This document shows, in pieces, positions 10,402 through 32,580 of a stretch of 64,000 nucleotides of DNA. Origin of the DNA: Burkholderiaceae bacterium (GTDB lineage: Bacteria > Pseudomonadota > Gammaproteobacteria > Burkholderiales > Burkholderiaceae_C); the NCBI GenBank assembly GCA_026125795.1, contig JAHCKM010000001.1, positions 744,001 through 808,000 of the forward strand, written 5' to 3'. Made by a program: the position numbers and the translations under genes. Within the stretch, counting starts at the first letter, position 1. Each line of letters opens with the position of its first letter. The notes beneath the pieces are model-generated. The model saw only the letters and a program-made list of their open reading frames with translations. It ran no database searches and was not told the origin of the DNA.

Positions 10402-11184
10402 ATGCAGATCGACTTTTCCGGCCAGTGGGCCGTGGTGACCGGCGGCGCGAGCGGCATCGGCGAAGCTTGCGTCAATGTGCTCGCCGCTGCCGGCGCGCGC
10501 GTGGTGGTGGCGGACCGCAACCTGCCCGCCGCGCAGGCCGTGGCTGCCGCGGCCGGCGGCGTGGCGGTGGCGCTGGACGTCGGCGACGACGCCTCGGTGG
10601 ACGCGGCCGTCGCGGCCGTACAGGCGCAGTGCGGCGTGCCGCAGGTGCTGGTCAACAGCGCCGGCGTCCTGCAGCGCACGCTGCCGCCCGAGGAGCTGAC
10701 GCTGCGCGAATGGGACTTCGTCGCGCGGGTCGACCTGCGCGGCACCTATTTGTGCTGCGCGCGTTTCGGTGCCGCGATGGCGCGCGCGGGCGGCGGCGCG
10801 ATCGTCAACATTGCCTCGGTCGCCGGAATGGGCTCGGGCCCGCTGCACTCGTACGGGCCGGCGAAGGCGGGCGTCATCAATCTCACCGAATGCCTGGCGG
10901 CGGAGTGGGGTCCCAAAGGCGTGCGGGTCAACGCGGTGTCGCCGGGGTTCACCCACACGCCGGCGCTGGACAAGGGCATCGCGACCCGCACGCTGACCAC
11001 GGACGACATGTCCGGCAACAGCGCACTCGGCCGGCTGATCGAGCCGCGCGAGATCGCCCACGCGGTGGCCTTTCTCGCGTCGCCGCAGGCCTCGGCGATC
11101 ACGGGCATCAACCTGCCGGTGGACGCGGGCTACCTCGTCGCGGTGCCCTGGGCGAGCTATGGCGGGCTGCGGCGAACTGGTTGA
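10402..11184 (+). CDS. Short-chain dehydrogenase/reductase (SDR)
   Basis: A 260-aa classical SDR: nucleotide-binding VTGGASGIG, NSAG, catalytic Ser in NIASVAGMG and the YxxxK pair in SYGPAKAG. The acidic residue after beta-strand 2 (VVVADRN) suggests NAD rather than NADP. It is probably a 3-hydroxyacyl-CoA or alcohol dehydrogenase. It is the last gene of the operon that began at 2788; the DNA after it is debris. Confidence 0.92.
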   Translation: MQIDFSGQWAVVTGGASGIGEACVNVLAAAGARVVVADRNLPAAQAVAAAAGGVAVALDVGDDASVDAAVAAVQAQCGVPQVLVNSAGVLQRTLPPEELTLREWDFVARVDLRGTYLCCARFGAAMARAGGGAIVNIASVAGMGSGPLHSYGPAKAGVINLTECLAAEWGPKGVRVNAVSPGFTHTPALDKGIATRTLTTDDMSGNSALGRLIEPREIAHAVAFLASPQASAITGINLPVDAGYLVAVPWASYGGLRRTG

Positions 11185-16980: not shown

Positions 16981-17742
16981 ATGCGCATCGGCAGCGTCGA
17001 GTTCGAGAAGAAGGGCAGGGTCGCCATCCTGACCCTCGACGAACCCACCAAGCTCAACGCGATCTCGCTCGGCATCCGCGAAGGCGTGACCGCGGGCCTG
17101 GCCCGGATCGAAGCCGATCAGGAGATCCGGGTCGGAATCCTCACCGGCCGCGGCGACAAGGCCTTCTGCGCCGGTGCCGACATCAGCACCTTTCCGGAAA
17201 CGCCCGAGCAGGCACGCGACTTCATCGCCGGCGTGCTGCCGGTGCTCGAGGCACCCGAGCGCTGCCGCAAGCCGCTCATCGCGGCCGTGAACGGCATTGC
17301 CTTCGGCGGCGGCTTCGAGCTGGCGATCGCCTGCGACTTCATCCTCGCCTCGGAGCGGGCCAAGTTCGGCGTGCCCGAGATCCAGCTCGGGCTGCTGCCG
17401 GGCTTCGCGCTGCTGCGGCTGCACCAGATCGTCGGCCGGCCCAAGGCGAAGGAGCTCAGCATGCTCGGCGAGCCGATACCGGCGGCCGAGGCGGTGAGCC
17501 TGGGCATCGCGCTGCGCACCGTGCCGCACGACAGGCTGATGGAAGAGGCGATGGCCTTCGCCGAGAAGCTGGCGGCCAAGCCGCAGATGGCGCTGCAGGT
17601 GGCCAAGTCCTTCTACAACAAGGGCATCGGCGGCGACGACATGCGCTACGCCATCGACGCATTCCCCTTCCTGTTCCAGACCGACGACGTGAAGGAAGGC
17701 GTCGCCGCCTTCCGGGCCAAGCGCAAGCCCGTGTTCAAGTGA
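16981..17742 (+). CDS. Enoyl-CoA hydratase/isomerase family protein
   Basis: 253 aa; ATG 16981 is preceded by CCAGGAG. It has oxyanion-hole segments KAFCAGADISTF and NGIAFGGGFELAIACD, and the second catalytic Glu in VPEIQLGLLPGFALLRL. The usual GGTQ is replaced by ALLRL, so the acid/base geometry may differ from classical hydratase. It is the first gene of the operon that continues with the flavoprotein (17753) and two thiolase-like/DUF35 modules. The 260-bp region upstream carries the TetR-type palindrome and no intact gene. Confidence 0.92.
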   Translation: MRIGSVEFEKKGRVAILTLDEPTKLNAISLGIREGVTAGLARIEADQEIRVGILTGRGDKAFCAGADISTFPETPEQARDFIAGVLPVLEAPERCRKPLIAAVNGIAFGGGFELAIACDFILASERAKFGVPEIQLGLLPGFALLRLHQIVGRPKAKELSMLGEPIPAAEAVSLGIALRTVPHDRLMEEAMAFAEKLAAKPQMALQVAKSFYNKGIGGDDMRYAIDAFPFLFQTDDVKEGVAAFRAKRKPVFK

Positions 17743-17752
17743 ACGGCGGGCG

Positions 17753-18883
17753 ATGAGCCGGGCCACGCTGCACAACGCGTTCTGCGACGCCTGGGGCATC
17801 GAGGTGCCGATCTTTCTGGCCGGCATGGGCGTGGGCGGGCGTGCCACGCCGCCGGCGCTGGTGGCCGCGGTCTCGCAGGCCGGCGGGCTCGGCGTGCTCG
17901 GCTGCTCGGGGCTGTCGCCCGAGGAAACCCGGCGCCGCATCCGCGCGGTGCGTGCGCTGACCGACCGGTCCTTCGGCGTCGATCTGCTGCTGCCGGCGCG
18001 CATCGCCGACGCGCCGCCGACGCGCTCCGAAGTGCGCGAGGACATCCGCGCGCGCTTTCCTAAGCACGCCGCGTTCGTGCAAGAACTGATCCGGCGCTAC
18101 GGCCTGCCCGACGTGAAGCCGGCCGACGAGACGGTGGTCAACATCGAGTACGCGAAGTCGGTACTCGAAGTCATCTTCGACGAGCGCGTGCCGGTGTTCG
18201 CCGCGGGTCTCGGCGACCCCGACTTCCTGCTCGCGCGCGCGCGCGAGCAGGGCATAAGGCTGATCGGGCTGTCGGGCTCGGTGCGCAATGCCGTGCGGCA
18301 GAGGAAATCGGGCGTCGACGCCATCGTCGCGCAAGGCACCGAGGCCGGCGGGCACACCGGCACGGTGGCGTCGCTACCCTTGATCCCGCAGGTGGTCGAT
18401 ACCGTGAGCCCAACTCCTGTGCTTGCCGCCGGCGGCATCGCAGACGGGCGCGGCATCGTCGCGGCCCTCGCGCTCGGCGCCCAGGCGGTGTGGATCGGCA
18501 CCGCGTTCCTCGTCGCCGACGAATGCGCGCTGTTCGATGGCTGCAAGGACCAGATCGTCGCGTCCGACTCGGAGGCCTTCCGCATCAGCAAGATCTGGAC
18601 GGGCAAGACGGTGCGCGCCTTCCACAGCGAGGTGTCGCAGGCCTGGGCCGAGTCGGGCCTGCCGACGCTCGAGACGCCGCACCAGCGCATCCTGATGGAG
18701 GACTTCCTCGCCGCGGCGCTCGCAGCGGGGCGGCACGATCTTTTCTACAACATCGCCGGCCAGGCCGGCGGCATGGTGAAGGCGCGCCGGCCGGCCGCGG
18801 ACATCATGGCCGACCTGGTCGATGGTGCGGCCGAGCAGCTGCGCCGCCTGCGGCGTGACGTTGCCATCAGCCTGCCGGCGTAG
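17753..18883 (+). CDS. Nitronate-monooxygenase-family FMN protein
   Basis: A 376-aa TIM-barrel flavoprotein of the 2-nitropropane dioxygenase family: IFLAGMGVGG, SQAGGLGVLG, the FMN-phosphate region GTEAGGHTG and VLAAGGIADGRGI plus ALGAQAVWIGTAF. In catabolic CoA-ester clusters this family includes IpdC-like enzymes acting on ring-derived acyl-CoAs, so an enoyl-CoA or hydroxyacyl-CoA redox role is more plausible here than nitronate oxidation. It follows the crotonase by 10 bp and precedes the thiolase-like gene by 15 bp. Confidence 0.88.
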   Translation: MSRATLHNAFCDAWGIEVPIFLAGMGVGGRATPPALVAAVSQAGGLGVLGCSGLSPEETRRRIRAVRALTDRSFGVDLLLPARIADAPPTRSEVREDIRARFPKHAAFVQELIRRYGLPDVKPADETVVNIEYAKSVLEVIFDERVPVFAAGLGDPDFLLARAREQGIRLIGLSGSVRNAVRQRKSGVDAIVAQGTEAGGHTGTVASLPLIPQVVDTVSPTPVLAAGGIADGRGIVAALALGAQAVWIGTAFLVADECALFDGCKDQIVASDSEAFRISKIWTGKTVRAFHSEVSQAWAESGLPTLETPHQRILMEDFLAAALAAGRHDLFYNIAGQAGGMVKARRPAADIMADLVDGAAEQLRRLRRDVAISLPA

Positions 18884-18898
18884 TCGAACGGGGAGAAC

Positions 18899-20050
18899 AT
18901 GGGAAGAAAAGCGATCATCAGCGGGGTGCACGACACGCAGGTGGGCTCGTTGCCGGAAAGCACCTGCATGTCGCTGCACACCGAGGCGACCCTCGGTGCG
19001 CTTGGCGATGCCGGGCTCGCGCTGTCGGACATCGACGGCCTGCTCACCGCGTACTCGTTCGCGTCGCCGCAGCTGATGCTCGGCGGCGTGCTCGCCGAGT
19101 ACCTCGGCTTCCGGCCGAAGGTCAACGCCTCGATCTGCATGGGCGGCATGACCGGCGGCCTGCTGGTGCGGCATGCCGAGTCGCTGGTGCGATCGGGCCA
19201 GTGCCGCCACGTGTTGTGCGTGACCGGCGACAACCGTCTCACGGGCATGGGCGAGAAGGTCCAGGCCGCGCTGGCCGACGTCGGCCATGCGCAGTACGAG
19301 CAGCCCTACGGCATGAGCGTGCCGGCCGCCTTCGCGATGGCCGCTCAGGTGTACTTCCACGAGGGCTGGCTCAACGGCGACCACCTTGCCGCGGTGGCGG
19401 TGAACCAGCGCGCCAACGCGGCGCTGCATCCGCAGTCGCACATGAAGAAACCGATCACGATGGACGATGTGCGCAAGTCCAAGGTGATCGCGTCGCCGCT
19501 GCGCATGCTCGACTGCTGCCTCGTCTCCGACGGCGCGGCGGCGGTGATCGTCAGCGCCGCCGAGACCGGGCGCGACCGCCCCAAGCGCGCGGTCGAACTG
19601 CTCGGTACGGGCGAGGGCCACACGCACGAGCACATCTTCGCGGCACCGTCGCTGATCGAGTTCGGCTGCCGCGAGTCGTTGGCAGATGCGCTCGGCCAGG
19701 CCGGGCTGAAGCACGCGGACGTCGACTGCGCGCACATCTACGACTGCTTCACCAGCACGCTGCTCATCACGCTCGAATCGATGGGCTTCTACGAACGCGG
19801 TGCCGCCGGTCCGGCTGCGCTGGCCGGCGAGTTCGCCATCGGGGGGCGCTTTCCGGTCAACACCAATGGCGGGCTGCTTTCGTACGGCTCGTCGGGGGCT
19901 GCGGGCGGCATGTTCCACGTCGTCGAGGCGGTGCGCCAGTTGCGCGGCGAATGCGGCCCGCGTCAGGTCAGGGACGCCGAGGTCGCGCTCGCGCACACGC
20001 TCGGCGGCATCTTCTCGGGCCACTGCTCGCTCGTCATGGGGAGGGCCTGA
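18899..20050 (+). CDS. SCP-x/Ltp2-like thiolase-fold protein, first of two in operon
   Basis: A 383-aa thiolase-superfamily protein. The nucleophile region reads NASICMGGMTGG, without the standard NxxCASG/CATGSS arrangement. The C-terminal histidine motif GHPxG is replaced by SYGSSGAAGG. AHIYDCFTSTLL corresponds to the conserved YDCFT of Ltp2-type enzymes. These changes argue for a retro-aldolase or atypical thiolase acting with the DUF35 protein encoded one base downstream. The family acts on steroid or branched acyl-CoA side chains in actinobacteria and proteobacteria; the substrate here is unknown. Confidence 0.88.
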   Translation: MGRKAIISGVHDTQVGSLPESTCMSLHTEATLGALGDAGLALSDIDGLLTAYSFASPQLMLGGVLAEYLGFRPKVNASICMGGMTGGLLVRHAESLVRSGQCRHVLCVTGDNRLTGMGEKVQAALADVGHAQYEQPYGMSVPAAFAMAAQVYFHEGWLNGDHLAAVAVNQRANAALHPQSHMKKPITMDDVRKSKVIASPLRMLDCCLVSDGAAAVIVSAAETGRDRPKRAVELLGTGEGHTHEHIFAAPSLIEFGCRESLADALGQAGLKHADVDCAHIYDCFTSTLLITLESMGFYERGAAGPAALAGEFAIGGRFPVNTNGGLLSYGSSGAAGGMFHVVEAVRQLRGECGPRQVRDAEVALAHTLGGIFSGHCSLVMGRA

Positions 20051-20051
20051 G

Positions 20052-20465
20052 ATGGCCGAAGTCCAAGCCAAGCCCGTTCCCGTGCCCGACGGCGTCAGCC
20101 GTCCGTACTGGGAAGGCGCGAACCTCGGCGAGTTCCGCTACCAGCGCTGCGGCGCCTGCGGCAAGGCGCAGTTCTACGCGCGCTCGGCCTGCATGCAATG
20201 CCGTGCCACCGACCTGCGCTGGCAGAAGGCGGCCGGCGGTGGGCGCATCGCCAGCTTCTCGGTGATCCATCGCGCGGCGCTGCCCTCGTTCGCAGGCGAT
20301 GTGCCCTACGTGCTGGCGCTGGTCGACCTCGACGAAGGCTTCCGGTTCATGTGCAACGTGCTGCACTGCGACCCCGCGACGGTGCGCATCGGCATGCCGG
20401 TGCGCGTGTGCTTCGAGTCGCGCGCCGGCAGCGAGCAGAAAGTTCCCCAGGTAGAACCTGCATGA
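20052..20465 (+). CDS. DUF35 zinc-ribbon/OB-fold partner protein
   Basis: 137 aa, starting one base after the thiolase-like stop. The zinc ribbon cysteines are Cys33, Cys36, Cys47 and Cys50 (CGACGKAQFYARSACMQC); the OB-fold half starts at GGGRIASFSVIHRA. In Ltp2-ChsH2 type complexes the DUF35 domain completes the acyl-CoA pocket of the thiolase-fold partner. The stop overlaps the following MaoC-like gene (ATGA), so the four genes are coupled. Confidence 0.88.
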   Translation: MAEVQAKPVPVPDGVSRPYWEGANLGEFRYQRCGACGKAQFYARSACMQCRATDLRWQKAAGGGRIASFSVIHRAALPSFAGDVPYVLALVDLDEGFRFMCNVLHCDPATVRIGMPVRVCFESRAGSEQKVPQVEPA

Positions 20466-20863
20466 GCGACCAGCCCGTTTTCAAGTACGACCACTACGAG
20501 CCGGGCAGGCACTACGGCTCGCGCGACTTCGCGGTCGACGAACCCACCATCGCCAAGTGGCGCGGCGTCTACCCGAACGACGACGACCCCGGCGTGATGC
20601 CCGGCGGCATGCTGGCGATGATCGTCATCGACGCCGTGCTCACGCTGAACTCGCCGCGCCCGCCCGGCGGCGTGCACGGCGGCCAGACCTTCGACGTTCG
20701 CCGCATGCCGCGCATCGGCGAGACGCTGCGCACCGACGTCTGGTGTCTCGACAAGGAGATCAAGAAAGACCGCAAGTGGGTGCGCGTGCGCAGCGAGACG
20801 CGCGCCATCGGATCGAACGAGCTGCTGTTCACCGGCGTCATGACGACGCTGGTGGCGCAGTAG
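20462..20863 (+). CDS. MaoC-like single hot-dog protein lacking the catalytic motif
   Basis: A 133-aa protein whose C-terminal half (GGQTFDVRRMPRIGETLRT, then a KWVRVRSETR strand) is hot-dog-like. It lacks the D-x4-H hydratase-2 motif that its neighbour at 20876 has. Half-size MaoC pairs in steroid clusters (ChsH1 with ChsH2 N-terminal domain) form heterodimers in which only one subunit is catalytic. This protein is inferred to be the non-catalytic, ligand-binding half. Confidence 0.75.
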   Translation: MSDQPVFKYDHYEPGRHYGSRDFAVDEPTIAKWRGVYPNDDDPGVMPGGMLAMIVIDAVLTLNSPRPPGGVHGGQTFDVRRMPRIGETLRTDVWCLDKEIKKDRKWVRVRSETRAIGSNELLFTGVMTTLVAQ

Positions 20864-20875
20864 GAGGGAACGCGA

Positions 20876-21265
20876 ATGCACGTCCAGCTGAAGCCGTCGA
20901 CCAAGCATGTCGACTTCGACACCATCATGAAGTACGCGGCGGTGACGAACGACTACAACCCGATCCACGTCGACCGCGAGTTCGCCGCAAAGAGCCCGAT
21001 GGGCGGCATCATCGCGCACGGCACGATGTCGGTCGCGCTGATCTGGCAGGCGCTGAAGAACACGCTTGGCGTCGATGCGCTGAACCGCGTGCACCTGGAG
21101 ATCCGCTTCGTGCAGCCGGTGCGCATCGACGACGACGTGACCGGCGGCGGCGAGCTGCGCGTCGGCAGCACGCCGCCGGTCTACGACGTGTGGGTGCGCA
21201 ACGCCAGGGGACAGGACGTGATCAAGGGCACCGCGACGGTCAAGCAGGCGGAGGCAGCAGCATGA
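20876..21265 (+). CDS. MaoC-type enoyl-CoA hydratase, catalytic half
   Basis: A 129-aa hot-dog protein with the complete hydratase-2 motif: TNDYNPIHVD gives Asp26 and His31, followed by GGIIAHGTMSVALIW. A GGAGGG ribosome binding site precedes ATG 20876. It hydrates 2-enoyl-CoA to 3-hydroxyacyl-CoA, probably as a heterodimer with the preceding protein, producing the substrate for a thiolase-like/DUF35 aldolase. Its stop overlaps the start of the second thiolase-like gene. Confidence 0.88.
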   Translation: MHVQLKPSTKHVDFDTIMKYAAVTNDYNPIHVDREFAAKSPMGGIIAHGTMSVALIWQALKNTLGVDALNRVHLEIRFVQPVRIDDDVTGGGELRVGSTPPVYDVWVRNARGQDVIKGTATVKQAEAAA

Positions 21266-22428
21266 GCCTGAAGCGGACCGCCTGCATTGCCGGAGCCTAC
21301 GAGCACCCGATCCGCCGTGCCGACGACAAGTCGGTCGCGCAGTTGCACGCCGAGGTGGCGCGCGGCGCGGTGGCCGACGCCGGGCTCACGCTCGCCGACG
21401 TCGATGGCTACTTCTGCGCCGGCGACGCGCCCGGTCTGGGCGCGCTGTCGATGGTCGACTACCTGGGACTGAAGCTGCGCCACGTGGACACCACCGAGAC
21501 CGGCGGTTCGTCCTACGTGGTGCACGTGGCCCATGCCGCGGCGGCGATTGCCGCCGGGCGCTGCAGCGTCGCGTTGATCACGCTGGCCGGCCGGCCCAAG
21601 GCCGAGGGCATGGCCACGGGCACCGCGCCGCGCAACTACGGGCCGGCGCCGGACGTGCCGTTCGAGCTGCCGTACGCGCCGACCACCGTCAACATGTATG
21701 CGATGGCGGCGATGCGCCACATGCACGAGCACGGCACGACGAGCGAGCAGCTCGCGTGGATCCGCGTCGCGGCATCGCACCACGCGCAGCACAACCCGCA
21801 CGCGATGGTGCGCGACGTCGTCACCGTGAAGGACGTCGTCGGCTCGCCGATGATCGCCGACCCGCTGCACCGGCTGGACTGCTGCGTGATCAGCGACGGC
21901 GGCGGCGCGCTCGTCGTCGTCAAGCCCGAGATCGCGCGCAGCCTGAAGCGCCCGGTCGTCAACGTGCTGGGCACGGGCGAGTACATGCGCGCGCAGAGCG
22001 GCGGCAAGGTCGACCTGCTGACCACCGGCGCGGCCTGGACTGGCAAGGCGGCCTTCGCCGAGGCGGGCGTGAAACCGGCCGACATCCAGTACGCATCGAT
22101 CTACGACAGCTTCACGATCACCGTGCTGCTGACGCTCGAGGATCTCGGCTTCTGCGCGAAGGGGCAGGGCGGTCGCTTCGTGTCCGACGGCAACCTGATC
22201 TCGGGCACCGGGCGGCTGCCCTTCAACACCGACGGCGGCGGCCTGTGCAACAACCATCCCGGCAACCGCGGCGGCATGACCAAGGTCGTCGAGGCGGTGC
22301 GCCAGCTGCGCGGCGAAGCGCACCCGAAGGTGCAGGTGCCCGACTGCCGGCTCGCGCTGGCGCACGGCACCGGCGGATCGCTCGGCACGCGTCACGGCAG
22401 TGCCACCCTCATCCTGGAGCGCGCATGA
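21262..22428 (+). CDS. SCP-x/Ltp2-like thiolase-fold protein, second of two in operon
   Basis: 388 aa, start ATG 21262 in the MaoC stop. The nucleophile region HVDTTETGGSSY has no cysteine at the expected position, while QYASIYDSFTITVLL holds the YD(S)FT motif and NTDGGGLCNNHPGNRGG keeps a His-Pro-Gly. Loss of the nucleophilic Cys is the trait that separates Ltp2-type aldolases from true thiolases. It is only distantly similar to the copy at 18899, so the two modules probably serve different chain positions or substrates. Confidence 0.88.
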   Translation: MSLKRTACIAGAYEHPIRRADDKSVAQLHAEVARGAVADAGLTLADVDGYFCAGDAPGLGALSMVDYLGLKLRHVDTTETGGSSYVVHVAHAAAAIAAGRCSVALITLAGRPKAEGMATGTAPRNYGPAPDVPFELPYAPTTVNMYAMAAMRHMHEHGTTSEQLAWIRVAASHHAQHNPHAMVRDVVTVKDVVGSPMIADPLHRLDCCVISDGGGALVVVKPEIARSLKRPVVNVLGTGEYMRAQSGGKVDLLTTGAAWTGKAAFAEAGVKPADIQYASIYDSFTITVLLTLEDLGFCAKGQGGRFVSDGNLISGTGRLPFNTDGGGLCNNHPGNRGGMTKVVEAVRQLRGEAHPKVQVPDCRLALAHGTGGSLGTRHGSATLILERA

Positions 22429-22823
22429 GTCTGCTCATCGGCCGGCGCACGATGCCGGCGCCCACCGTCTACCCCGAAGCGCGGCCGTTCTGGGACGCCG
22501 CGGCCGAGGGCCGGCTGCTCGTCAAGCGCTGCGACGACTGCGGCGAGCACCACCACTACCCGCGCGACGGCTGCCCGTTCTGCGGCAGCGTGCGCACCAG
22601 CTGGCACTCGGCCAGCGGGCAGGGCACGATCTACAGCTTCAGCGTCATGCGCCGCGCCGAAGTGCCCTACATCCTCGCCTACGTGACGCTCGACGAGGGA
22701 CCGACGATGATGACCAACATCGTCGATGCCGATGCGGATGCCGTGCGCATCGGCCTGCGCGTCAGCGTGCGCTTCCAGCCGAGCGACGGCGGGCCGCCGC
22801 TGCCGGTGTTCGTGCCGGCCTGA
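22425..22823 (+). CDS. DUF35 zinc-ribbon/OB-fold partner protein
   Basis: 132 aa, starting inside the thiolase-like stop (ATGA). Zinc ribbon Cys36, Cys39, Cys50 and Cys53 is unusually histidine-rich between the pairs (CGEHHHYPRDGCPFC). The OB half begins at GQGTIYSFSVMRRAE. It is the last gene of the plus-strand operon; an inverted repeat at 22833-22850 lies between it and the convergent thiolase. Confidence 0.88.
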   Translation: MSLLIGRRTMPAPTVYPEARPFWDAAAEGRLLVKRCDDCGEHHHYPRDGCPFCGSVRTSWHSASGQGTIYSFSVMRRAEVPYILAYVTLDEGPTMMTNIVDADADAVRIGLRVSVRFQPSDGGPPLPVFVPA

Positions 22824-24448: not shown

Positions 24449-25240
24449 TCAAGCCAGCCAGCGCTTGCGGCGCCGGTAGTGCTTGATGTCCTTGAAGTTC
24501 TTGCCTTCCGCGCCGCCGAGGTAGGCTTCGCGGATGTCGGGGTTGTTGCGCAGCACCTCGGCCTTGTCGTGCATCACGACGCGCCCGTTCTCGATCAGAT
24601 AGCCGTGCGAGACGACGTCGAGCGCGGCGATCGCGTTCTGCTCGACGAGCAGGATCGACATCCCCTCGTCGCGGTTGATGCGGCGCAGGATGTCGAAGAT
24701 CTCGTCGACGACCACCGGCGCGAGGCCCAGGCTGGGTTCGTCGAGCATGAGCAGCTTGGGCTGCGTCATCAGCGCTCGGCCGATGGCCAGCATCTGTTGC
24801 TCGCCGCCCGAGAGGTAGCCGGCCTTGGCCGTGCGGCGCTGATGCAGACGCGGGAAATAGGCGTAGACGCGGTCACGGTTGCGCGCCATGTCGCGCCCGC
24901 CATGCACCGCCGACGCCGCAACGAGGTTCTCGTCCGGCGTCAGGTGCTCGAACACGCGCCGGCCCTCGAGCACCTGCGCGATGCCGAGCTTCACGCGGTC
25001 CTGCGGCGGCAGCTTGCCGATGTCCTGGTCGAGAAAGCGCACGTCGCCGCGCGTGACCTCGCCGCGCTCGGCCTTCAGCAGCCCGCTCACTGCCTTCAGC
25101 GTCGTGCTCTTGCCGGCGCCATTCGCGCCCAGCAGGGCGACCATGCCGCCCTTGGGCACCTCGATCGACACGCCCTTGATGGCGAGGAAGACCCGGTCGT
25201 AGATGACCTCGATGTTGTTGAGGGTGAGGGCGTTGGTCAT
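24449..25240 (-). CDS. livF: Branched-chain amino acid-type ABC transporter ATPase LivF
   Basis: 263 aa. Walker A is GANGAGKST, the signature is YLSGGEQQML and Walker B is LLMLDEPSLGLAP, all typical of LivF, and the C-terminus carries a basic tail (KHYRRRKRWLA). It pairs with LivG at 31780-32580 on the cytoplasmic side of the LivHM permease. It follows the two periplasmic binding protein genes in the same minus-strand operon. The substrate in this context is more likely a carboxylate of the pathway than an amino acid. Confidence 0.9.
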   Translation of the reverse strand: MTNALTLNNIEVIYDRVFLAIKGVSIEVPKGGMVALLGANGAGKSTTLKAVSGLLKAERGEVTRGDVRFLDQDIGKLPPQDRVKLGIAQVLEGRRVFEHLTPDENLVAASAVHGGRDMARNRDRVYAYFPRLHQRRTAKAGYLSGGEQQMLAIGRALMTQPKLLMLDEPSLGLAPVVVDEIFDILRRINRDEGMSILLVEQNAIAALDVVSHGYLIENGRVVMHDKAEVLRNNPDIREAYLGGAEGKNFKDIKHYRRRKRWLA

Positions 25241-25271
25241 CGGATTCTCGGGCTGGCGTCCCGCTCTGGTG

Positions 25272-26519
25272 CTACTTGGTGTTGGCCTTCGCGAAGTCCG
25301 CCGAGTTCGCCTTCACCAGCGTGTTGACGAGGCCGGTGTAGTCGGCGAACCAGTCGGTCTGCGCGACCCACTTCGTGCCGTCCCACATGTCGATGCGGGT
25401 CTTGCCGCCGCCGCCGTGGTCCTTCGGCGTGACGGTGATCGGTGCCATGAAACCCTTGGCATCGAAGTTCTTGATGCCGTACATGCCCTGGCGGATCTTC
25501 TCGGGCGTGAGCGGCCAGCCCTGCGTCTTGATCGCCAGGCGCACGCCTTCGAACACCGACGAATACACCGCGAGGCCGGTGTTGTAGTAGGAGTCGGCGA
25601 CCATCTTGCGGTCGCCGTTTCCCTTGCCCTTGTCGTAGAGCTGGGCGAGGATGTCCTTGACGAGGGGATGCTCGGCGCCGCCCACCACAACGGTCGAGCG
25701 CTTCAGGCCCTTGGCTGCCGCCGCGCCGAAGTTGTTGATGTCGATCTCGTTGATCCAGTTGACCGTCACCATCCGGTCGATCGGGATGCCGTTGCGCTGC
25801 ATCTCGCGGAAGGTGATCGGGTTCAGCGGCGAGAACGACCACAGCATGATCCAGTCCGGCTGGTAACGACGGATCTGCGCGAAGGCTGCGCTCTGGTCGT
25901 TGCCCGGCACCGGGAAGGGGAAGGTCTGGAACTCGAAGCGCTCGAGCCGCTTGAGGGCCTCGAACACCGGAATCGGCTCGCGCCCGAAAGGCGTGTCCAG
26001 GTACAGGAAGGCAATCTTCTTGCCTTGCAGCTCGCCCTTGGCCTGCTTCTTGAAGTAGCTGATGATGTTGGCTGCCTGGCCCCAGTAGGTGGGGGCCAGC
26101 GGGAACACGTTCTTGAACACCTCGCCGTCGACCGCATCGCCGCGGCCGACCAGCGGCTGCACGAGGATGTTGCCGTCCTGGACGATGCGGGGTAGGGCCG
26201 CGCGCGACACCGGTGTCGAGAAGAAGTCGAACACCATCACGCCTTCGCGCTTCAGGCGCTCGTAGCAGTCGATGCCGCGCTGCGGCTCGTTGCCGTGGTC
26301 CACCAGCGTGACTTCGATCGGATGGCCTTCGATGCCGCCGCGCATGTTGAGCAGGTCGGCGTAGTCCTTGACGGCCTGCGCGAGCTGCGGCACGGCGGCG
26401 ACGTAGATCTTGCTGATGTCGTAGCACAGGCCGAACTTCACCGGGTCGGCGGCTTGCGCGGTCAGGGACGACAGCAGGAGCGCCGCGGAAGCGAGCGCAC
26501 GGGCCAGGGCATGAGGCAT
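25272..26519 (-). CDS. LivK-type periplasmic substrate-binding protein, copy 2
   Basis: 415 aa with a Sec signal peptide (residues about 1-23, cleavage after LTAQA). It is a type I periplasmic-binding fold: VKFGLCYDISKIY, RGGIEGHPIEVTLVDHGNEP, and a central PTYWGQAANIISYFKKQ. It is clearly paralogous to the neighbour at 26586 across the whole length (for example DHGNEPQRGI and PITVTPKDHGGGGKTRI in both). The pair probably widens the substrate range of one permease. Confidence 0.9.
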   Translation of the reverse strand: MPHALARALASAALLLSSLTAQAADPVKFGLCYDISKIYVAAVPQLAQAVKDYADLLNMRGGIEGHPIEVTLVDHGNEPQRGIDCYERLKREGVMVFDFFSTPVSRAALPRIVQDGNILVQPLVGRGDAVDGEVFKNVFPLAPTYWGQAANIISYFKKQAKGELQGKKIAFLYLDTPFGREPIPVFEALKRLERFEFQTFPFPVPGNDQSAAFAQIRRYQPDWIMLWSFSPLNPITFREMQRNGIPIDRMVTVNWINEIDINNFGAAAAKGLKRSTVVVGGAEHPLVKDILAQLYDKGKGNGDRKMVADSYYNTGLAVYSSVFEGVRLAIKTQGWPLTPEKIRQGMYGIKNFDAKGFMAPITVTPKDHGGGGKTRIDMWDGTKWVAQTDWFADYTGLVNTLVKANSADFAKANTK

Positions 26520-26585
26520 GTCAGCTTCTCCTGGTGGGGAAAGGGCGGCGGCCCAGGCGTACGCCCGGGCACGCCGCGGCGGGCG

Positions 26586-27830
26586 TCATTGGCCGGTGGA
26601 CTTCGCGAACTCGGCCGAGTGCTGCTTCACCGTGCTCCAGACCAGGTCGTTGTAGTCGGAGCTCCAGTCGCTCTGGGGCACCCACTTCGCGCCGTCCCAC
26701 ATCTCGATGCGGGTGCGTCCGCCGCCGCCGTGGTCCTTGGCCGTGACCGTGATCGGTGGCAGCAGACCGCCGGCGTTATAGTCTTTCAGGCTTTCGAGGC
26801 CTTTGCGCATCTTCTCCGCGGTCAGCGGCGCCTTCTCGTTCTTCAGCGCGAGGCGGGCGGCCTCGAACACCGGCGCGTAGATCGACAAGCCGGTGGCGTA
26901 GTAGATGTCGGAGAGGAACTTCGGATCGCCGTTGCCCTTGCCCTTGTCGTACAGCTCGCGCTTGATGTCCTTCATCAGCGGGTGGTCGGTGCCGCTGACC
27001 ACCGTCGTCGAGCGGCGCAGGCCCTTGGCGTTGTCGGCGCCGATGTTGGCGAGGTCGACTTCATTGAACCAGTTCACGCTGATCACCTTGTCGAGCCCGA
27101 TGCCGTTGCGCTTGGCTTCCTTCGCCGCGACGACGTGCATCGCCGAGAAAGCCCAGTGGATCACCGCGTCGGGCTGGTAGCGGCGGATCTGCGACCAGGC
27201 GGACGACTGGTCGCTGCCGGGAAGCGGGTACGGGAACAGCTCGAGCTCGAAGCCCTCGCGTTTCTGCAGTTCCTTGAGCACCGGGATTGGCTCCTGGCCG
27301 AAGGGGTAATCGATGTACAGGAAGGCGATCTTCTTGCCCTTCAGGCTGCCGCCGGCCTGCTTCTTGAGGTAGCCAACGATGTTCGCGGCCTGGCCCCAGT
27401 AGGTGGGTCCCAGCGTGTAGACCCACTTGAACACCTCGCCGTCGACCGCATCGCCACGGCCGGCCAGCGCCTGGACCATTACCTCGCCATCCTTCATTGC
27501 CCGCGGCAGCACGGCGCGCGACACCGGCGTGGACAGAAGGTCCACCGTGATCGCCTGGCCCTTGACGCGCTCGTAGCATTCGATGCCGCGCTGCGGCTCG
27601 TTGCCGTGGTCCTGGACGATGACTTCGATCGGGTGTCCCTCGAGACCGCCGCGCAGGTTCAGCAGCGCGGCGTAGTCCTTCGCCGCCTGCGCGACCTGCG
27701 GCGTGATGAAGGTGTAGGCCTTGGTCAGGTCGTAGCACAGTGCGAAGCGAACGGGCTCGGCGGCGAAGGCCGCCGGCACGCTCAGCGCAAGCGCCGCGGC
27801 GCCCAGCAGGGTTTTCAGTTTGAGGTACAT
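26586..27830 (-). CDS. LivK-type periplasmic substrate-binding protein, copy 1
   Basis: 414 aa; start ATG 27830 with a signal peptide ending at VPAAFA. It has the same architecture and many identical motifs as the next gene (RGGLEGHPIEVIVQDHGNEP, TYWGQAANIVGYLKKQ). Both have a C-terminal segment, KDHGGGGRTRIEMWDGAKWV, typical of aromatic/aliphatic-acid LivK relatives. It lies between livM and the second copy. Tandem duplication followed by divergence is the simplest origin. Confidence 0.9.
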   Translation of the reverse strand: MYLKLKTLLGAAALALSVPAAFAAEPVRFALCYDLTKAYTFITPQVAQAAKDYAALLNLRGGLEGHPIEVIVQDHGNEPQRGIECYERVKGQAITVDLLSTPVSRAVLPRAMKDGEVMVQALAGRGDAVDGEVFKWVYTLGPTYWGQAANIVGYLKKQAGGSLKGKKIAFLYIDYPFGQEPIPVLKELQKREGFELELFPYPLPGSDQSSAWSQIRRYQPDAVIHWAFSAMHVVAAKEAKRNGIGLDKVISVNWFNEVDLANIGADNAKGLRRSTTVVSGTDHPLMKDIKRELYDKGKGNGDPKFLSDIYYATGLSIYAPVFEAARLALKNEKAPLTAEKMRKGLESLKDYNAGGLLPPITVTAKDHGGGGRTRIEMWDGAKWVPQSDWSSDYNDLVWSTVKQHSAEFAKSTGQ

Positions 27831-27877
27831 GGAAAGCCTCCTTGTGTCGGCGGTAAAGTGGACGGGCACGGTTGCCA

Positions 27878-28951
27878 CTACTTCCTGGCGTAGCCGAAAG
27901 GCCAGAAGATGAAGTAGTTGCGCAGGTTGGCGTAGATCTTGGCAAGTCCGAGCGGTTCGAACAGCAGGAACCCGATGATCAACACGCCGTACAGGAACGC
28001 GGGGATGTGCGCGAGCAACTCGATGCCGATCTTCAGGTTGGCCGCTTGCGCCGCGGCGAAGATCAGGTTCGCGACGATGCCCGGCAGCAGAAGGATGAAA
28101 GCGACGCCGAAGTAGCAGCCGATCACGCTGCCCAGCCCGCCGACGATCACCATCGCCAGAACCTGGATCGACACGTTGACGGCGAACTGTTCCGGCGTGA
28201 CCGCGTGATAGAAGCAGAACACGAGGATCGCGCCGCTCACGCCGCCGATGAAGGACGACATCGCGAAGGCGACGAGCTTGTAGTAGAAGCTGTTCACGCC
28301 GATCACCGCCGCCGCGAAGTCTTTCTCGCGCACAGCCACCAGCGCGCGCCCGAGTCCGGTTCGCCGCAGGTTGAGCATGAACACGGTGACCAGGACGCAC
28401 CACGCGAGCGCGACATAGTACAGGCCGGCATCGGAGGTGACGGGGTTGCCGAGCAGTCGCAGCGGAGGGGCCTGGATGGTCGCCTGCGTGCCGCCGCTGA
28501 CGGCAGGCACCTTGTTGATCACCCAGTCCATCACGAACTGCAATGCCAGAGTGCTCAGGGCAAGGTAGAGCCCGCGCACGCGCAGCGCCGTGATCGCGAA
28601 GGCGCAGCCGATCACCGTGGCCATCGCCCCGGCGAGCACCAGGGCGATTTCGAAGGGGATGCGGTTCAGCGTGGCATGCACCGCGGTGTAGGCGCCGATG
28701 CCCATGATCGCTGCATACCCGAAATGGAACTGGCCGGCCCAGCCGAGGATGAGGTTCAGCCCGAGCGCGGCGGCGGTCCAGATGAGCCAGGGCAGCACGT
28801 AGCTCTTCATGTAGAGCGAACTGACCACCGCCGGGACGACGAGGGCGAGCACAAGCAGCAGCCCGATCTGCCAGCGGTCGAACGGGATCGGGAACAACTG
28901 CCGGTCGGCCCGGTAGGTGGTGTGGTGGATGCCGGCTTGGCGGAAGAACAT
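27878..28951 (-). CDS. livM: Branched-chain amino acid-type ABC permease LivM
   Basis: A 357-aa polytopic membrane protein with about nine helices. LGLNLILGWAGQFHFGYAA and the cytoplasmic coupling segment RTGLGRALVAVREKDFAA are LivM hallmarks. It starts 5 bp after livH ends. It forms the transmembrane dimer with LivH. Confidence 0.92.
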   Translation of the reverse strand: MFFRQAGIHHTTYRADRQLFPIPFDRWQIGLLLVLALVVPAVVSSLYMKSYVLPWLIWTAAALGLNLILGWAGQFHFGYAAIMGIGAYTAVHATLNRIPFEIALVLAGAMATVIGCAFAITALRVRGLYLALSTLALQFVMDWVINKVPAVSGGTQATIQAPPLRLLGNPVTSDAGLYYVALAWCVLVTVFMLNLRRTGLGRALVAVREKDFAAAVIGVNSFYYKLVAFAMSSFIGGVSGAILVFCFYHAVTPEQFAVNVSIQVLAMVIVGGLGSVIGCYFGVAFILLLPGIVANLIFAAAQAANLKIGIELLAHIPAFLYGVLIIGFLLFEPLGLAKIYANLRNYFIFWPFGYARK

Positions 28952-28956
28952 GATGC

Positions 28957-29844
28957 TCAGATCCTCTGGATGTCCTCGCGGCCGAACAGGCCGTGCGGAC
29001 GGATCAGGATGGTCAGGACCAGCGTGGCGGCGACGACCAATTCACGGCTGCCGCCGCCCACCAGGCGGTCGAGGTAGCCCGACGCGACGCCCTGGAACAT
29101 GCCGAGCAGCACACCGGCGAGAATGGCGCCCCCGATGCTGTCGAGACCGCCGAGCACGGCGACGGTGATGCCCATCAGCAGCAGCTGCGACAGCGACTGG
29201 TCCACGCCCTGGATCGAGCCCCACAGGGCTCCGGCCAGCGTGGCAACGACGGCCGACATCGCCCAGGACAGCGCGACGCCCCGCTCGACCGAGATGCCCA
29301 CCGACCAGGAAGCCGTGTAGTCGTCGGAGATCGCGCGCAGCACGATGCCCATGCGGGTGCGGAAGAACAGCACGAAGAAGCCGAACAGCAGCAGTGCCAC
29401 TACGCCGCCGGCGACGTAGCTGCGGTTGATCAGGATCGGGCCGATGAACAGCGGGTCGGACGAAATCGGCAGCGGCAGCACGCGGTTCGTGCCGCCCCAG
29501 GCGACCAGTGCCGTGGCGCGGACGAAGATGTCCAGCGCCAGCGTCATCATCAGGATCATCACCAGAGGCCGCCCCGCGAGGCGGCGAAGCGCCGTCCGCT
29601 CGATGCCCATCCCCACGCCGAACATGGCCGCCATGCCCACCGGCAGCGCGAGCCAGATCGGCAGCTTCAGCGCTTCGAACACCGCCAGCACGACGTAGGC
29701 GCCAAGCATGGCCAGCGCCCCCTGCGCGAGGTTGGGCACCGAGGACGACTTGTAGATCAGCACGATGCCCAGTGCCACCAGCGAGTACATCAGGCCCGAC
29801 AGTGCGCCGTTGATCGCCAGTTCCAGGAGGAGCGCCCAGTCCAT
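28957..29844 (-). CDS. livH: Branched-chain amino acid-type ABC permease LivH
   Basis: A 295-aa membrane protein from ATG 29844. Features are NGALSGLMYSLVALGIVLIY at the N-terminus, NLAQGALAMLGAY, and the EAA-like cytoplasmic loop TRMGIVLRAISDDYTAS. It starts two bases before the end of the acyl-CoA synthetase gene upstream, so the ligase is embedded in the transporter operon. Confidence 0.92.
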   Translation of the reverse strand: MDWALLLELAINGALSGLMYSLVALGIVLIYKSSSVPNLAQGALAMLGAYVVLAVFEALKLPIWLALPVGMAAMFGVGMGIERTALRRLAGRPLVMILMMTLALDIFVRATALVAWGGTNRVLPLPISSDPLFIGPILINRSYVAGGVVALLLFGFFVLFFRTRMGIVLRAISDDYTASWSVGISVERGVALSWAMSAVVATLAGALWGSIQGVDQSLSQLLLMGITVAVLGGLDSIGGAILAGVLLGMFQGVASGYLDRLVGGGSRELVVAATLVLTILIRPHGLFGREDIQRI

Positions 29845-29846
29845 GC

Positions 29847-31790
29847 TCAAAGGCTCCTCACCGCGAGGGTGCGCTCGATGACGCCCTTGTCGCCGGTGTC
29901 GTAGGTGATCTGTGCCTTCATCACCACCGAGTCGGCACCGCCATACAGCGCGTCGATGACGGTGGCGTAGCGATCTTCGATGACGTTGCGGCGCAGCTTG
30001 CGGGTGCGCGTGATCTCGCCGTCGTCCGGGTCGAACTCCTTGTGCAGGTTGGCGAAGCGACGGATGCGCAAGCCCTCGGGCAAGGCCTCGTTGACGCGCT
30101 TGATCGCGGCGATGACGAGTTCGTAGACCTGGGGCTTCTGCGACAGGTCCGCATAGCTGATGTAGGGAATGCCGCGCACCTCGGCCCAGTGCCCCACCGC
30201 ATCGGCGTCGATGCACACCATCGCGCAGAGATGGTCGCGCCCGGCGCCCAGCACCGCCACGTCCTTGATATAGGGGCTGAACTTGAGCCGGTTCTCGATA
30301 TAGTTCGGGATGAAGCGTTCGCCCTTGGCGGTGTGCACCACCTCGGCCACCCGGCCGAGCACCACGAGATGCCCGTCGGGCTCCACGTAGCCTGCGTCGC
30401 CGGTGTGCAGCCAGCCGTCCACGAGCGTCTTGCGTGTTGCTTCGTCATTGCTGAAGTAGCCGCCGAACACGCTGCCCGACCGAACCAGGATTTCGCCGTC
30501 GTCGGCGATACGGGCATCCACGCCCGGCAGTGGCCGGCCGACCGTGTGCAGCCGCACCTCGTCGGTAGACTGCACCGCATTGAATGCGCTGCTCTCGGTC
30601 TGGCCGTAGAGTTGGCGCAGGTTGACGCCCAGCGCGCGGTAAAAGAGAAAGGTGTCCTCGCCCATCGCCTCGCCGCCGGTGAGGGCCACGCGCATGCGGT
30701 TCAGGCCGAACTGGTCCTTCACCGGGCCGAACACCAGCCATTCGCCGAGCCTGCACTGCACGCGCTGCCAGGCCGACGGCGTCTTGCCCTGCAGCTTCAG
30801 CCGCTCGACCGCGACGCCGACGTCGACGAAGTGGTCGAACACGCGCTTCTTCAGCGGCGTCGAGTCCTCCATGCGCACGCGGATCGAGGTGAGCATGTTG
30901 TCCCAGCTGCGCGGCGCCGCGAGGTACAGCGTCGGGGCGATCTCGCGCAGGTTGCGCAGCACCGTCTCCGAGCGCTCGGGGATGTTGATCGTGAAGCGCA
31001 ACGCGACGCCCGCGCCCATGGTCACGGCGAAGTCGCCGATCCAGGCCATCGGCAGGTAGGCGAGGATGCTTTCCTCCCAGTGGAAAACGTCGCCCTTGAA
31101 CGCATTGCGCACGCCCGCGATGACATTGCGCTGCTGCAGCACCACGCCCTTGGGCTTGCCGGTCGTCCCGGAGGAGTGGACGAAGACCGCCGGGCCGTCC
31201 GGCCGCGCGCGCTGGATGATGTCGTCGCGCAGCGCCGGGCGCTCGCGCAGGCGCGCCGCGCCGGCGTCGCGCAGCGCCTCCCAGCTCATGAGCCCATCGA
31301 CCTTGTAGTGGTTCAGGCCGCGTGGGTCGTCGTACACGATGTGGCGCAGCACCGCGCCGCTTTCGCGCAGTTCGAGCAGCTTGTCGACCTGCTCCTGGTC
31401 CTCGGCGAGCGCGAACCGGGCCTGCGCCTCGCTGGCGAAGTGCAGCACCTCGTCGGGCGTGGCGTCCGGATAGACGGGCATCGCGTACCCGCCCAGGGCA
31501 CCGGCCGCGAGCATGCCGGCGTACAGGCGGACGCGGTTGTCGCCGAGCACCAGCATGGAGTCCCCCTCGGCGAAGCCGAGCCCCTCGAGGCCGGCGGCGA
31601 CGGCCAGCACCTCGTCGAGCAGTTGCTGCCAGGTCAACTCCTGCCAGATGCCGAGCGCCTTCTCGCGCATGGCCACCCGGCTGCCGTGGCCGCGCGCGTT
31701 GACCGCGAGCAGGCGCGTCAGCGTCGTCTCGGGGTCCAGGTTCCACTGCGTCGCCGCCGCCGCGGGCCCGGCGATGTCCTCACGCCGCAT
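29847..31790 (-). CDS. Long-chain-type AMP-forming acyl-CoA synthetase embedded in liv operon
   Basis: A 647-aa ANL enzyme of the long, FadD15-like form. The P-loop is VHSSGTTGKPKGVV, the adenine motif is LYGQTESS, GWLHTGDAGYVEPDGHL follows, and the C-terminal lysine region is FDPDDGEITRTRKLRRN. It overlaps the livG 3' end by 11 bases. Coupling uptake to CoA activation in one operon fits vectorial capture of a carboxylic acid. Long-chain-type ligases in such operons often take aromatic or alicyclic acids. Confidence 0.92.
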   Translation of the reverse strand: MRREDIAGPAAAATQWNLDPETTLTRLLAVNARGHGSRVAMREKALGIWQELTWQQLLDEVLAVAAGLEGLGFAEGDSMLVLGDNRVRLYAGMLAAGALGGYAMPVYPDATPDEVLHFASEAQARFALAEDQEQVDKLLELRESGAVLRHIVYDDPRGLNHYKVDGLMSWEALRDAGAARLRERPALRDDIIQRARPDGPAVFVHSSGTTGKPKGVVLQQRNVIAGVRNAFKGDVFHWEESILAYLPMAWIGDFAVTMGAGVALRFTINIPERSETVLRNLREIAPTLYLAAPRSWDNMLTSIRVRMEDSTPLKKRVFDHFVDVGVAVERLKLQGKTPSAWQRVQCRLGEWLVFGPVKDQFGLNRMRVALTGGEAMGEDTFLFYRALGVNLRQLYGQTESSAFNAVQSTDEVRLHTVGRPLPGVDARIADDGEILVRSGSVFGGYFSNDEATRKTLVDGWLHTGDAGYVEPDGHLVVLGRVAEVVHTAKGERFIPNYIENRLKFSPYIKDVAVLGAGRDHLCAMVCIDADAVGHWAEVRGIPYISYADLSQKPQVYELVIAAIKRVNEALPEGLRIRRFANLHKEFDPDDGEITRTRKLRRNVIEDRYATVIDALYGGADSVVMKAQITYDTGDKGVIERTLAVRSL

Positions 31791-32580
31791 GCTGATGGCC
31801 CTTTCCGAGATAAGCCTCGATCACGCGCGGATTCGCCACCACCTCGCGCGGCAGGCCCGTGCCGATGACCTCGCCGTAGTTCAGCGCCATGATGCGGTCG
31901 CAGATGCCGGTGACCACGTCCATGTGGTGCTCGATCAGCAGCACCGTGATGCCGCGTTCGTCGCGCGCGTCGAGGACGAAGCGCGCCATGTATTCCTTCT
32001 CCTCCTGGTTCATGCCGGCCATCGGCTCGTCGAGGATCAGGAACGTGGGTTCGGACACGAGGGCGCGGGCGAGCTCGACCCGCTTCTTCAGGCCGATCGA
32101 CAGCGATTCCACGGGCTCGTCGCGCACCCCCTGGAGTTGCAGGAATTCGATGACATCCTCACAGGCGCGCCGGTGGGCGATTTCCTCCGGCTGGCCCAGC
32201 CACCAGTACAGGGCGGTCTTGAGCACGCCGGGATGCAGGTGCACATGGCGCCCGAGCAGGATGTTGTCGAGCACCGACATGCCGTTGAACAGCGCCAGGT
32301 TCTGGAAGGTGCGCGCCAAGTGCCGGCGCGCCACCAGGTGGGGCTTGAGGCCGGTGATGTCGCTGCCGTTGAGCAGGATGCGGCCCGTCTGCGGCGGGTA
32401 GAAGCCGGTGATGGCGTTGACGAGCGTCGTCTTGCCGCTGCCGTTGGGGCCGACCAGGCCGAAGATCTCGCCCCGATCGATGCGCAGATCGACGCCGGTC
32501 ACGGCGACAAGGCCCCCGAAACGCCGCTCGAGGCCTTGCACTTCGAGGACCGGGGCGGGCTTGCTCGGAGCGGCAGTCAT
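31780..32580 (-). CDS. livG: Branched-chain amino acid-type ABC transporter ATPase LivG
   Basis: A 266-aa ATPase. ATG 32580 (MTAAPSKPAPVLEVQGLERR) is preferred over the upstream TTG 32610, which lies inside a palindrome-related sequence. Walker A is GPNGSGKTT, the LSIGLKKRVELARAL signature is the LivG variant, and Walker B is FLILDEPMAGMN. It is the first gene of the minus-strand operon and diverges from the aldehyde dehydrogenase operon. Confidence 0.92.
   Translation of the reverse strand: MTAAPSKPAPVLEVQGLERRFGGLVAVTGVDLRIDRGEIFGLVGPNGSGKTTLVNAITGFYPPQTGRILLNGSDITGLKPHLVARRHLARTFQNLALFNGMSVLDNILLGRHVHLHPGVLKTALYWWLGQPEEIAHRRACEDVIEFLQLQGVRDEPVESLSIGLKKRVELARALVSEPTFLILDEPMAGMNQEEKEYMARFVLDARDERGITVLLIEHHMDVVTGICDRIMALNYGEVIGTGLPREVVANPRVIEAYLGKGHQHAA

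Follow-up and report, generated by a model that had tools for sequence, protein, structure and literature searches.

We analysed a DNA window of 64,000 nt (contig JAHCKM010000001.1, positions 744,001-808,000, forward strand; "window" always means this full stretch). At 18899..22823 it carries six genes, T1-D1-M1-M2-T2-D2, encoding two thiolase-fold proteins (T1, T2), two DUF35 proteins (D1, D2) and two MaoC-type halves (M1, M2). We consider it fairly probable that these genes form part of a catabolic operon for an acid, probably branched or cyclic and not a steroid, that is processed as its coenzyme A (CoA) thioester. Within it M1-M2 would carry out a hydration and T1-D1 a retro-aldol cleavage, and T2-D2 as well as a third pair further upstream, T3-D3, would belong to the same enzyme class. 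The genes, predicted folds, motifs, gene order and conservation were observed; from these we infer the reactions, the order of the steps, the substrate class and the protein contacts.

Gene order and conservation of the six-gene set

All six open reading frames (ORFs) are intact and are spaced by +1, -4, +12, -4 and -4 bases, in agreement with the tight overlap that a sequence-only reading of this DNA had described. The genes are:

18899..20050, plus strand: T1, thiolase-fold protein of 383 amino acids (aa), predicted retro-aldolase; YDCF motif, Gly at the nucleophile column, Ser at the GHP-His column
20052..20465, plus strand: D1, DUF35 partner with zf-ChsH2 and OB_ChsH2_C; its zinc ribbon is of C4 type, and in the PDB it matches the DUF35 chain of 9myr best
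20462..20863, plus strand: M1, MaoC/hot-dog half without catalytic motif; RPxGxxHxxQ signature
20876..21265, plus strand: M2, catalytic MaoC half with Asp26 and His31
21262..22428, plus strand: T2, thiolase-fold protein of 388 aa, NCBIfam PRK08142; YDSF motif, Gly at the nucleophile column, His at the GHP column
22425..22823, plus strand: D2, DUF35 partner; C4 zinc ribbon

One genome per species (84,980 species) was scanned with an M1 alignment and one peptide pattern. This yielded 94 relatives, which is a lower bound due to the single pattern, and 80 loci were kept (L numbers below denote these and further loci of the analysis). Because the pattern selects for RPxGxxH, this portion of the M1 signature is over-represented among the hits. 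L174/L086, L070/L095, L071/L122 and L072/L147 were taken as the same contigs, each pair being counted once in locus and genome counts. M2 lies directly 3' of M1 in 79 of the 80 loci and T1-D1 directly 5' of M1 in 59, while T2 follows M2 in 17 loci and D2 is found in 16. The 17 loci with T2 represent 15 genomes: 13 Burkholderiales (among them Schlegelella koreensis, Xenophilus azovorans, Caenimonas sedimenti and metagenome-assembled genomes (MAGs) of Rubrivivax), one MAG (L104) whose label goes no further than Proteobacteria, and a MAG of Panacagrimonas. In these loci T2 is 89-96% and T1 87-94% identical (the fragmentary L104 being omitted for T1), and the 4-base overlap of M2 and T2 was retained in 13 of 15 loci measured. 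T1-D1-M1 without T2 behind it was found in 43 of the 80 loci, 42 of these with M2. Two assemblies (G543 and G549) carry two copies of the cluster each, on different contigs (L079 with L088; L085 with L091).

Ratios of nonsynonymous to synonymous substitution rates (dN/dS), obtained with our own Nei-Gojobori script against five relatives (four for D2), ranged from 0.08 to 0.45 across the six genes; T1 and T2 lie at 0.08-0.14, and D2 reaches 0.45. Since the gene order recurs in other genomes and dN/dS lies within this range, the set is more than a chance arrangement. From locus counts, identities and dN/dS, we read T1-D1-M1-M2 as the probable core, to which T2-D2 would have been added later and then stably retained. 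Homologs of M1 are rare, with 7 of 399 genomes of the order, and T1-like proteins (E ≤ 1e-60) common, with 26 of 150 genomes of the family, the own genome being included in both counts; the T1-like proteins of the others are at most 51% identical.

A Pfam scan of the six proteins (E ≤ 0.001) detected Thiolase_C_1 in T1 and T2, zf-ChsH2 and OB_ChsH2_C in D1 and D2, and MaoC_dehydratas in M2. In the same scan M1 gave zero domains, and neither T1 nor T2 showed an SCP2 domain, i.e. the C-terminal domain by which SCP-x is recognised. T2 falls into NCBIfam PRK08142 (727 bits vs a cut-off of 462), and T1 stays under all NCBIfam cut-offs (best PRK06158, 310 vs 421 bits). The AlphaFold2 model of M1 is a MaoC-type hot dog with a mean predicted local distance difference test score (pLDDT) of 94.0; its best Foldseek matches in the PDB include the MaoC-like 4ffu and 3exz, PhaJ1 and HadA, and a profile search gave a weak PhaJ1 match (E 8e-6). 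Asp26 and His31 of M2 are invariant in a 25-row alignment. Among rows from the 80 loci, after dropping those with less than 85% query coverage or without a stop, the DxNPxH motif is kept in 67/67 M2 rows and in 0/70 M1 rows, and the C4 zinc ribbon in 57/57 D1 and 14/14 D2 rows. The assignment of M1 as motif-less and M2 as catalytic half, already made from the sequence, was thus confirmed, and M2/M1 would correspond to the combination of one Asp/His half and one inert half known from ChsH1-ChsH2.

Active sites and relationships of the thiolase-fold proteins

The nucleophile column holds Gly in T1, T2, T3 and the references CtSal, TcLtp2 and 4u4e, and Cys in the reference 7yvy and in a BktB-type thiolase of the window. 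The active-site alignment comprised 123 non-reference rows, namely T1 and T2 of the window and 121 rows from the loci; two of the latter, L001 and L159, are the window's own T1 and T2 once more, which leaves 121 distinct rows. Removal of identical sequences had reduced 134 thiolase-fold rows to 121. Gly was present in 122 of the 123 rows, the exception being L111 with Cys and an HDCF motif, i.e. His for Tyr. Within the Gly rows the Tyr of YDxF was kept in 121 of 122 (Ala in L008). Every T1-labelled row and 16/16 T2 rows at ≥85% identity (15 relatives and the window copy) have the Gly. At the GHP-His column T1 has Ser, and T2 has His within NHPG as in thiolases. The earlier statement that both proteins lack the standard nucleophile and that one of them lacks the GHP histidine was therefore correct.

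In CtSal, which has Gly at the nucleophile position, Tyr302 and Cys304 of a YDCY motif are essential and a C304S variant is inactive; in TcLtp2 the catalytic pair is Tyr294/Tyr344 (PMC12329534). Cys283 of T1 aligned with the Cys of the CtSal YDCY, such that T1 possesses a Tyr281/Cys283 dyad. T2 has Ser at this general-acid column, and His where TcLtp2 has Tyr and CtSal has Gln. We did not file T2 as Sal or Ltp2, because it lacks the general acid of either.

The 61 distinct M1-linked T1 rows (at least 54% identical) showed just two combinations of the YDxF Tyr, the CtSal-Cys column and the GHP column: Tyr/Ser/His in 38 and Tyr/Cys/Ser in 23, with zero others. On the trees a change from the former to the latter is compatible with one event, the 38 and 23 rows being non-independent. 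The pattern suggests, in a non-statistical sense, His in the one case and Cys in the other as the proton donor. Across the wider family, Tyr/Cys/His occurs in 11 of 123 rows, and T3 is of that type, so that His and Cys can co-occur.

T1 and T2 are 35% identical, D1 and D2 39%. In a careful tree T1 and T2 fall into separate well-supported clades, and a clade of T1 and T2 only was rejected by the approximately unbiased (AU) test (p 1e-13), a test chosen after an earlier tree had pointed to the same answer. The low identity and this test rule out a local duplication of the T/D pair, and T1 and T2 are, as judged from these comparisons, old paralogs. The thiolase/DUF35 part is thus doubled in the sense that two pairs flank the MaoC halves, as had been noted before; a recent doubling it is not, and T3-D3 adds a third pair. 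T1, T2, T3, CtSal and TcLtp2 form separate branches of one fork without settled order, and T2 lies in an old separate clade together with 4u4e. A phylogeny had been suggested as a check on whether both are true thiolases. It placed T1 and T2 on the Sal/Ltp2 side, split from 7yvy and BbsB with moderate support (81/93) and long branches, and the alignment showed no nucleophilic Cys in either protein.

The fold model of T1 has a mean pLDDT of 83.7 with some loops below 50. The closest PDB relatives of T1 are 4u4e and then 9myr (Sal with the DUF35 part of Shy), by sequence as well as by fold; those of D1 are 9myr_B and then 6ok1_B. Aldolases of the Sal/Ltp2 kind assemble with a DUF35 partner into a heterotetramer; for T1 and T2 the products of the adjacent DUF35 genes are the candidate partners.

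Proposed reactions and alternative explanations

In the pathway that we propose M1 and M2 would associate as a MaoC heterodimer: M2 would contribute the Asp/His pair, and the inert M1 would give a bulky acyl group the space it needs. The heterodimer would hydrate an alpha,beta-unsaturated acyl-CoA to a 3-hydroxyacyl-CoA. D1-bound T1 would then break the C-alpha/C-beta bond by retro-aldol cleavage, with Tyr281 of YDCF accepting the hydroxyl proton and Cys283 donating a proton to the enolate. A short acyl-CoA and an aldehyde or ketone would result; since the nucleophile is Gly, no acyl-enzyme is expected. That the aldolase pulls an unfavourable hydration equilibrium has been given as the reason for coupling hydratase and aldolase in this way (PMC11321319). 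T2-D2 and T3-D3 would act as the same class on other intermediates, T2 using the GHP His as probable proton donor in place of Cys. More tentatively, we envisage a non-steroid pathway with repeated hydration and retro-aldol cuts, in which three anciently diverged aldolase/DUF35 pairs work with one heteromeric MaoC hydratase and a dedicated pyruvate-dehydrogenase-like complex for the carbonyls, and in which the proton donor of the T1 lineage moved from the His of the GHP position to the Cys of YDxF. As the statements graded here overlap, their degrees of confidence may add up to more or less than one.

Among the nearest solved relatives of T1 and D1 is Sal-Shy (PDB 9myr) from Comamonas testosteroni. 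Like T1, it has Gly for the nucleophile and a Tyr/Cys dyad, and it works with a DUF35 partner and a MaoC hydratase (PMC12329534, PMC11321319). In Shy the DUF35 part, with a C3H1 zinc finger, is fused to a single homodimeric MaoC domain (PMC12329534, PMC11321319); our locus encodes DUF35 separately, with a C4 ribbon. The locus also differs from Sal-Shy in its hydratase with an inert partner, in the second and third T/D pairs and in that KshA, the steroid marker, gave no match in its own genome. The ChsH1-ChsH2-Ltp2 system of the igr operon (PDB 6ok1) and TA441 ORF40-44 combine catalytic and inert MaoC halves, DUF35 and a thiolase-fold aldolase in one operon, as here; ChsH2/ORF40 is a MaoC-DUF35 fusion, whereas D1 and M1 are separate overlapping genes (PMC12502768). 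Since the separately expressed MaoC and DUF35 parts of TA441 are still functional (PMC12502768), the unfused state is no obstacle. Further differences of ChsH1-ChsH2-Ltp2 are YDHF plus Tyr344 in Ltp2, one aldolase per hydratase and a steroid substrate, where a non-steroid one is probable for the present locus. The view that the locus mirrors this system with the domains as separate genes is supported for the MaoC halves and for T1-D1, which resembles Sal with the DUF35 part of Shy in active site, partner and fold; T2 lacks the Cys essential in CtSal.

The best PDB sequence match of both T1 and T2 is 4u4e, a putative thiolase of Sphaerobacter thermophilus with Gly, YDSF and His as in T2, and uncharacterised as far as its listing shows. 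The benzoylsuccinyl-CoA thiolase BbsAB (7pxp) consists, as here, of a thiolase-fold and a DUF35-type protein as separate subunits; BbsB has an HDAF motif and groups with 7yvy, away from T1/T2, its sequence being partial. A model for T2-D2 alone could be IpfD/IpfE of ibuprofen degraders, with IpfE being a DUF35 protein. This "thiolase" pair is credited with a hydratase-free retro-aldolase step to propionyl-CoA; unlike here, its step comes after that of a dioxygenase, and the substrate is an aromatic dihydrodiol CoA ester (PMC9195938). Atf1/ChsH4 of Mycolicibacterium neoaurum pairs an aldolase with a stand-alone DUF35 gene, as in our locus, and its operon (atf1, chsH4, chsE6, kstR3) differs by having no MaoC gene among those named there and by serving a steroid substrate (PMC10398937), which is unlikely here. 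Unfused aldolase and DUF35 genes are thus not new.

Two aldolase-like enzymes served by one hydratase had been put forward as a new arrangement. By adjacency it is possible that M1-M2 serves T2. It need not do so, because T2-type pairs occur elsewhere with no M1/M2 homolog in the fetched stretch and the wider cluster also holds three crotonase-type genes, which could supply T2-type enzymes with substrate, and a third T/D pair. The T2-type pairs elsewhere in the own genome are 72-73% identical, have their own D2 and lie away from T1; M1/M2 homologs were not found around them in the fetched stretch, where distant MaoC proteins could escape detection.

T2-D2 might be an enzyme of another kind, with T1-D1 as the aldolase of M1-M2 and T2 catalysing a non-covalent Claisen-type cleavage, an acyl transfer or a decarboxylation with its Tyr and GHP His. 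We regard this as possible, if doubtful. The YDSF motif, given the inactivity of CtSal C304S (PMC12329534), the thiolase-like NHPG, the second-site pairs and the old clade shared with the uncharacterised 4u4e would fit such a role. The nucleophile Cys is absent from T2 and the aldolase Tyr present, however, and Tyr/Ser/His is also found in the 38 of 61 T1 rows from the T1/M1 context, where an aldolase is the simplest reading.

That T1 and T2 form one heteromeric enzyme, T2 being a structural or regulatory subunit, is rather unlikely. While the retained M2-T2 overlap and the strong purifying selection on both genes agree with it, each T has its own D, T1-D1-M1 stands without T2 in more than half of the loci (43/80) and the 72-73% T2 relatives with their own D2 lie away from T1.

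Unlikely, too, is a steroid system, i.e. a rearranged ChsH1-ChsH2-Ltp2 plus Sal-Shy set for bile acid or sterol side chains. Domain content and logic match, and the bile acid pathway uses two aldolases, Sal and Ltp2 (PMC12329534). One T2-type pair of the own genome (L171) lies near FAD_binding_2 and Oxidored_FMN proteins, and of the 15 other T2-bearing genomes 3 have a KshA_C match just above the cut-off. Against this, a search of the own genome (98.9% complete) for KshA_C gave zero matches at E ≤ 0.001, for which reason we consider a steroid substrate unlikely; this result bears only on the known aerobic ring route. Of the 150 family genomes 50 had a match, 41 of them above the cut-off and 8 at E<1e-24, which were taken as true KshA; next to these, what the 15 other genomes returned is weak (lowest E 1.7e-5). 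Genes for E1/E2 and a nitronate-monooxygenase-like protein (NMO), as in the window, were not noticed in the passages on steroid side-chain sets that were read, in which no dedicated search for them was made.

Finally, it is most unlikely that T1 or T2 are ordinary thiolases that close a beta-oxidation spiral despite their motif changes: relatives carry the names thiolase or acetyl-CoA acetyltransferase and the Thiolase_C_1 domain is present, yet both proteins have, like every T1-labelled row and all 16 close T2 rows, Gly instead of the nucleophilic Cys, so that we rejected FadA or SCP2-thiolase identities.

Several points weigh against the operon that we propose. Its functions are carried over from distant relatives (29-32% identity by Foldseek), and many T1-like proteins of 36-51% identity occur where there is no M1, such that family membership alone is insufficient for function. 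Ser rather than Cys occupies the CtSal-Cys column in 38/61 M1-linked T1 rows, and the inactive CtSal C304S speaks against an aldolase role of T2 unless its His substitutes. M1 and M2 are not sequence-detectable sisters, as a comparison of their profiles by hhalign gave no convincing mutual similarity (probability 8%). KshA_C is a single marker, applied without a named steroid degrader as positive control, and 4 of the 15 other T2-bearing genomes have weak matches to it, 3 of them above the cut-off. That E1/E2 oxidises the carbonyl product, or a 2-oxo acid from it, is a guess from the gene neighbourhood; E1/E2 genes were not found in the fetched stretch of 40/60 T1-linked loci, many of which ended early by contig ends or flank limits. 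In favour of the proposed operon, E1/E2 genes (≥40% identity) were found in the fetched stretch of 20/60 T1-linked loci vs 0/20 others (Fisher p 0.002, the loci being related and non-independent). In 3 of the 20 others (L122, L147, L156) a T1-like gene lies nearby without adjoining M1.

Each element of the set is already known: MaoC halves of the inert and the catalytic type next to DUF35 and an aldolase (PMC12502768), DUF35 encoded by a gene of its own (PMC10398937) and two aldolases per pathway (PMC12329534). Searches limited to open-licence papers listed no case of the full combination of three aldolase-like pairs without any sign of steroid genes. In the literature found, characterised thiolase-fold aldolases with DUF35 partners serve steroid and ibuprofen breakdown. 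T1 relatives are annotated as thiolase or acetyl-CoA acetyltransferase; if the proposed operon is correct, many "thiolases" with Gly and YDxF would be aldolases of other pathways. The natural Tyr/Ser/His and Tyr/Cys/Ser variants within one operon family would make the proton-donor question directly testable, and the operon would supply unfused hydratase and aldolase parts of small size. The carriers are some soil and water bacteria, which probably use it for the breakdown of a bulky non-steroid acid.

Surrounding genes and related loci

The remaining genes of the neighbourhood are:

1..513, plus strand: C-terminal part of T3, third thiolase-fold protein with Gly, YDCF and His; its start lies beyond the left edge of the window (match from contig base 743356)
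510..941, plus strand: D3, DUF35 partner of T3
1971..2729, plus strand: IclR-type regulator
2788..3609, plus strand: ECHb, crotonase-type; at least 50% identical in 22/60 T1-linked loci
3671..5658, plus strand: E1 alpha and beta, pyruvate-dehydrogenase-like thiamine pyrophosphate enzyme; beta passes PRK09212, alpha is below its cut-offs
5670..6449, plus strand: ECHc, crotonase-type
6453..7664, plus strand: E2 lipoyl acyltransferase
7686..8858, plus strand: acyl-CoA dehydrogenase
8880..10391, plus strand: AMP-forming acyl-CoA ligase
10402..11184, plus strand: short-chain dehydrogenase (SDR); directly 5' of ECHa in five relatives
11773-16720: ABC-2-like efflux cassette, judged by eye
16981..17742, plus strand: ECHa, crotonase-type hydratase/isomerase; identity of 70% or more in 16/60 T1-linked loci
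17753..18883, plus strand: NMO, nitronate-monooxygenase-like flavoprotein; identity of 60% or more in 20/60 T1-linked loci
22841-24363, minus strand: BktB-type thiolase, and an ORF of 109 aa resembling one part of an alpha/beta hydrolase; both are located in the interval from D2 to the ABC block
24449..32580, minus strand: convergent block with a LivF-like ABC ATPase (24449-25240) and a second AMP-ligase-like gene (29847-31790), both by scan; the rest is an uptake system by eye

T3 has orthologs (88-93%) in 12 of those 15 genomes that carry the six-gene set. Upstream of T3 lies an ORF resembling, by eye, IstB of IS21 (L058, 8058-8864). In L084, L087, L090, L092 and L093 the SDR gene stands directly before ECHa, without the cassette at 11773-16720. 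Because the two sides are contiguous in these loci, we suggest that the gene blocks flanking the cassette were or still are one operon. The whole block 24449..32580 is kept beside the operon in L079, L081 and L174. In L174 the hydrolase has 305 aa and BktB was not seen; neither was seen in L079 and L081. Two adjacent acyl-CoA dehydrogenases at 38986-41334 of the window are not clear orthologs of the dehydrogenases beside T1 in relatives, which are just about 25-38% identical to the window dehydrogenases.

A pathway of alkylsuccinate- or citramalyl-CoA-like type, yielding a 2-oxo acid for E1/E2, was also tried as an explanation and dropped, with a CitE-like match in the fetched stretch of just 3/80 loci; it remains a guess. 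In Sulfitobacter L076 (8980-10560) and in L158 a CitE-like CoA ester lyase directly follows M1-M2 and might be an alternative retro-aldol partner. A sister M1-M2 subfamily (L131, L132, L135, L137, L139, L149) lacks T1-D1 and lies beside acyl-CoA dehydrogenase, SDR and CoA-transferase-like genes, with a BktB-like thiolase in 5 of these 6 loci; apparently the same split hydratase serves ordinary beta-oxidation there. In Paraburkholderia unamae (L134, 310-3230) a FAD_binding_2 protein adjoins a NuoF-like protein near a T1-D1-M1-M2-E1-E2-E3 set. The own genome is rich in these families, with nine OB_ChsH2_C (DUF35) matches and at least 7 thiolase-fold proteins with Gly and YDxF. In its L171 (2849-13678) the T2-type pair is accompanied, besides the FAD_binding_2 and Oxidored_FMN proteins, by SDRs and a ligase, a catabolic-looking setting.

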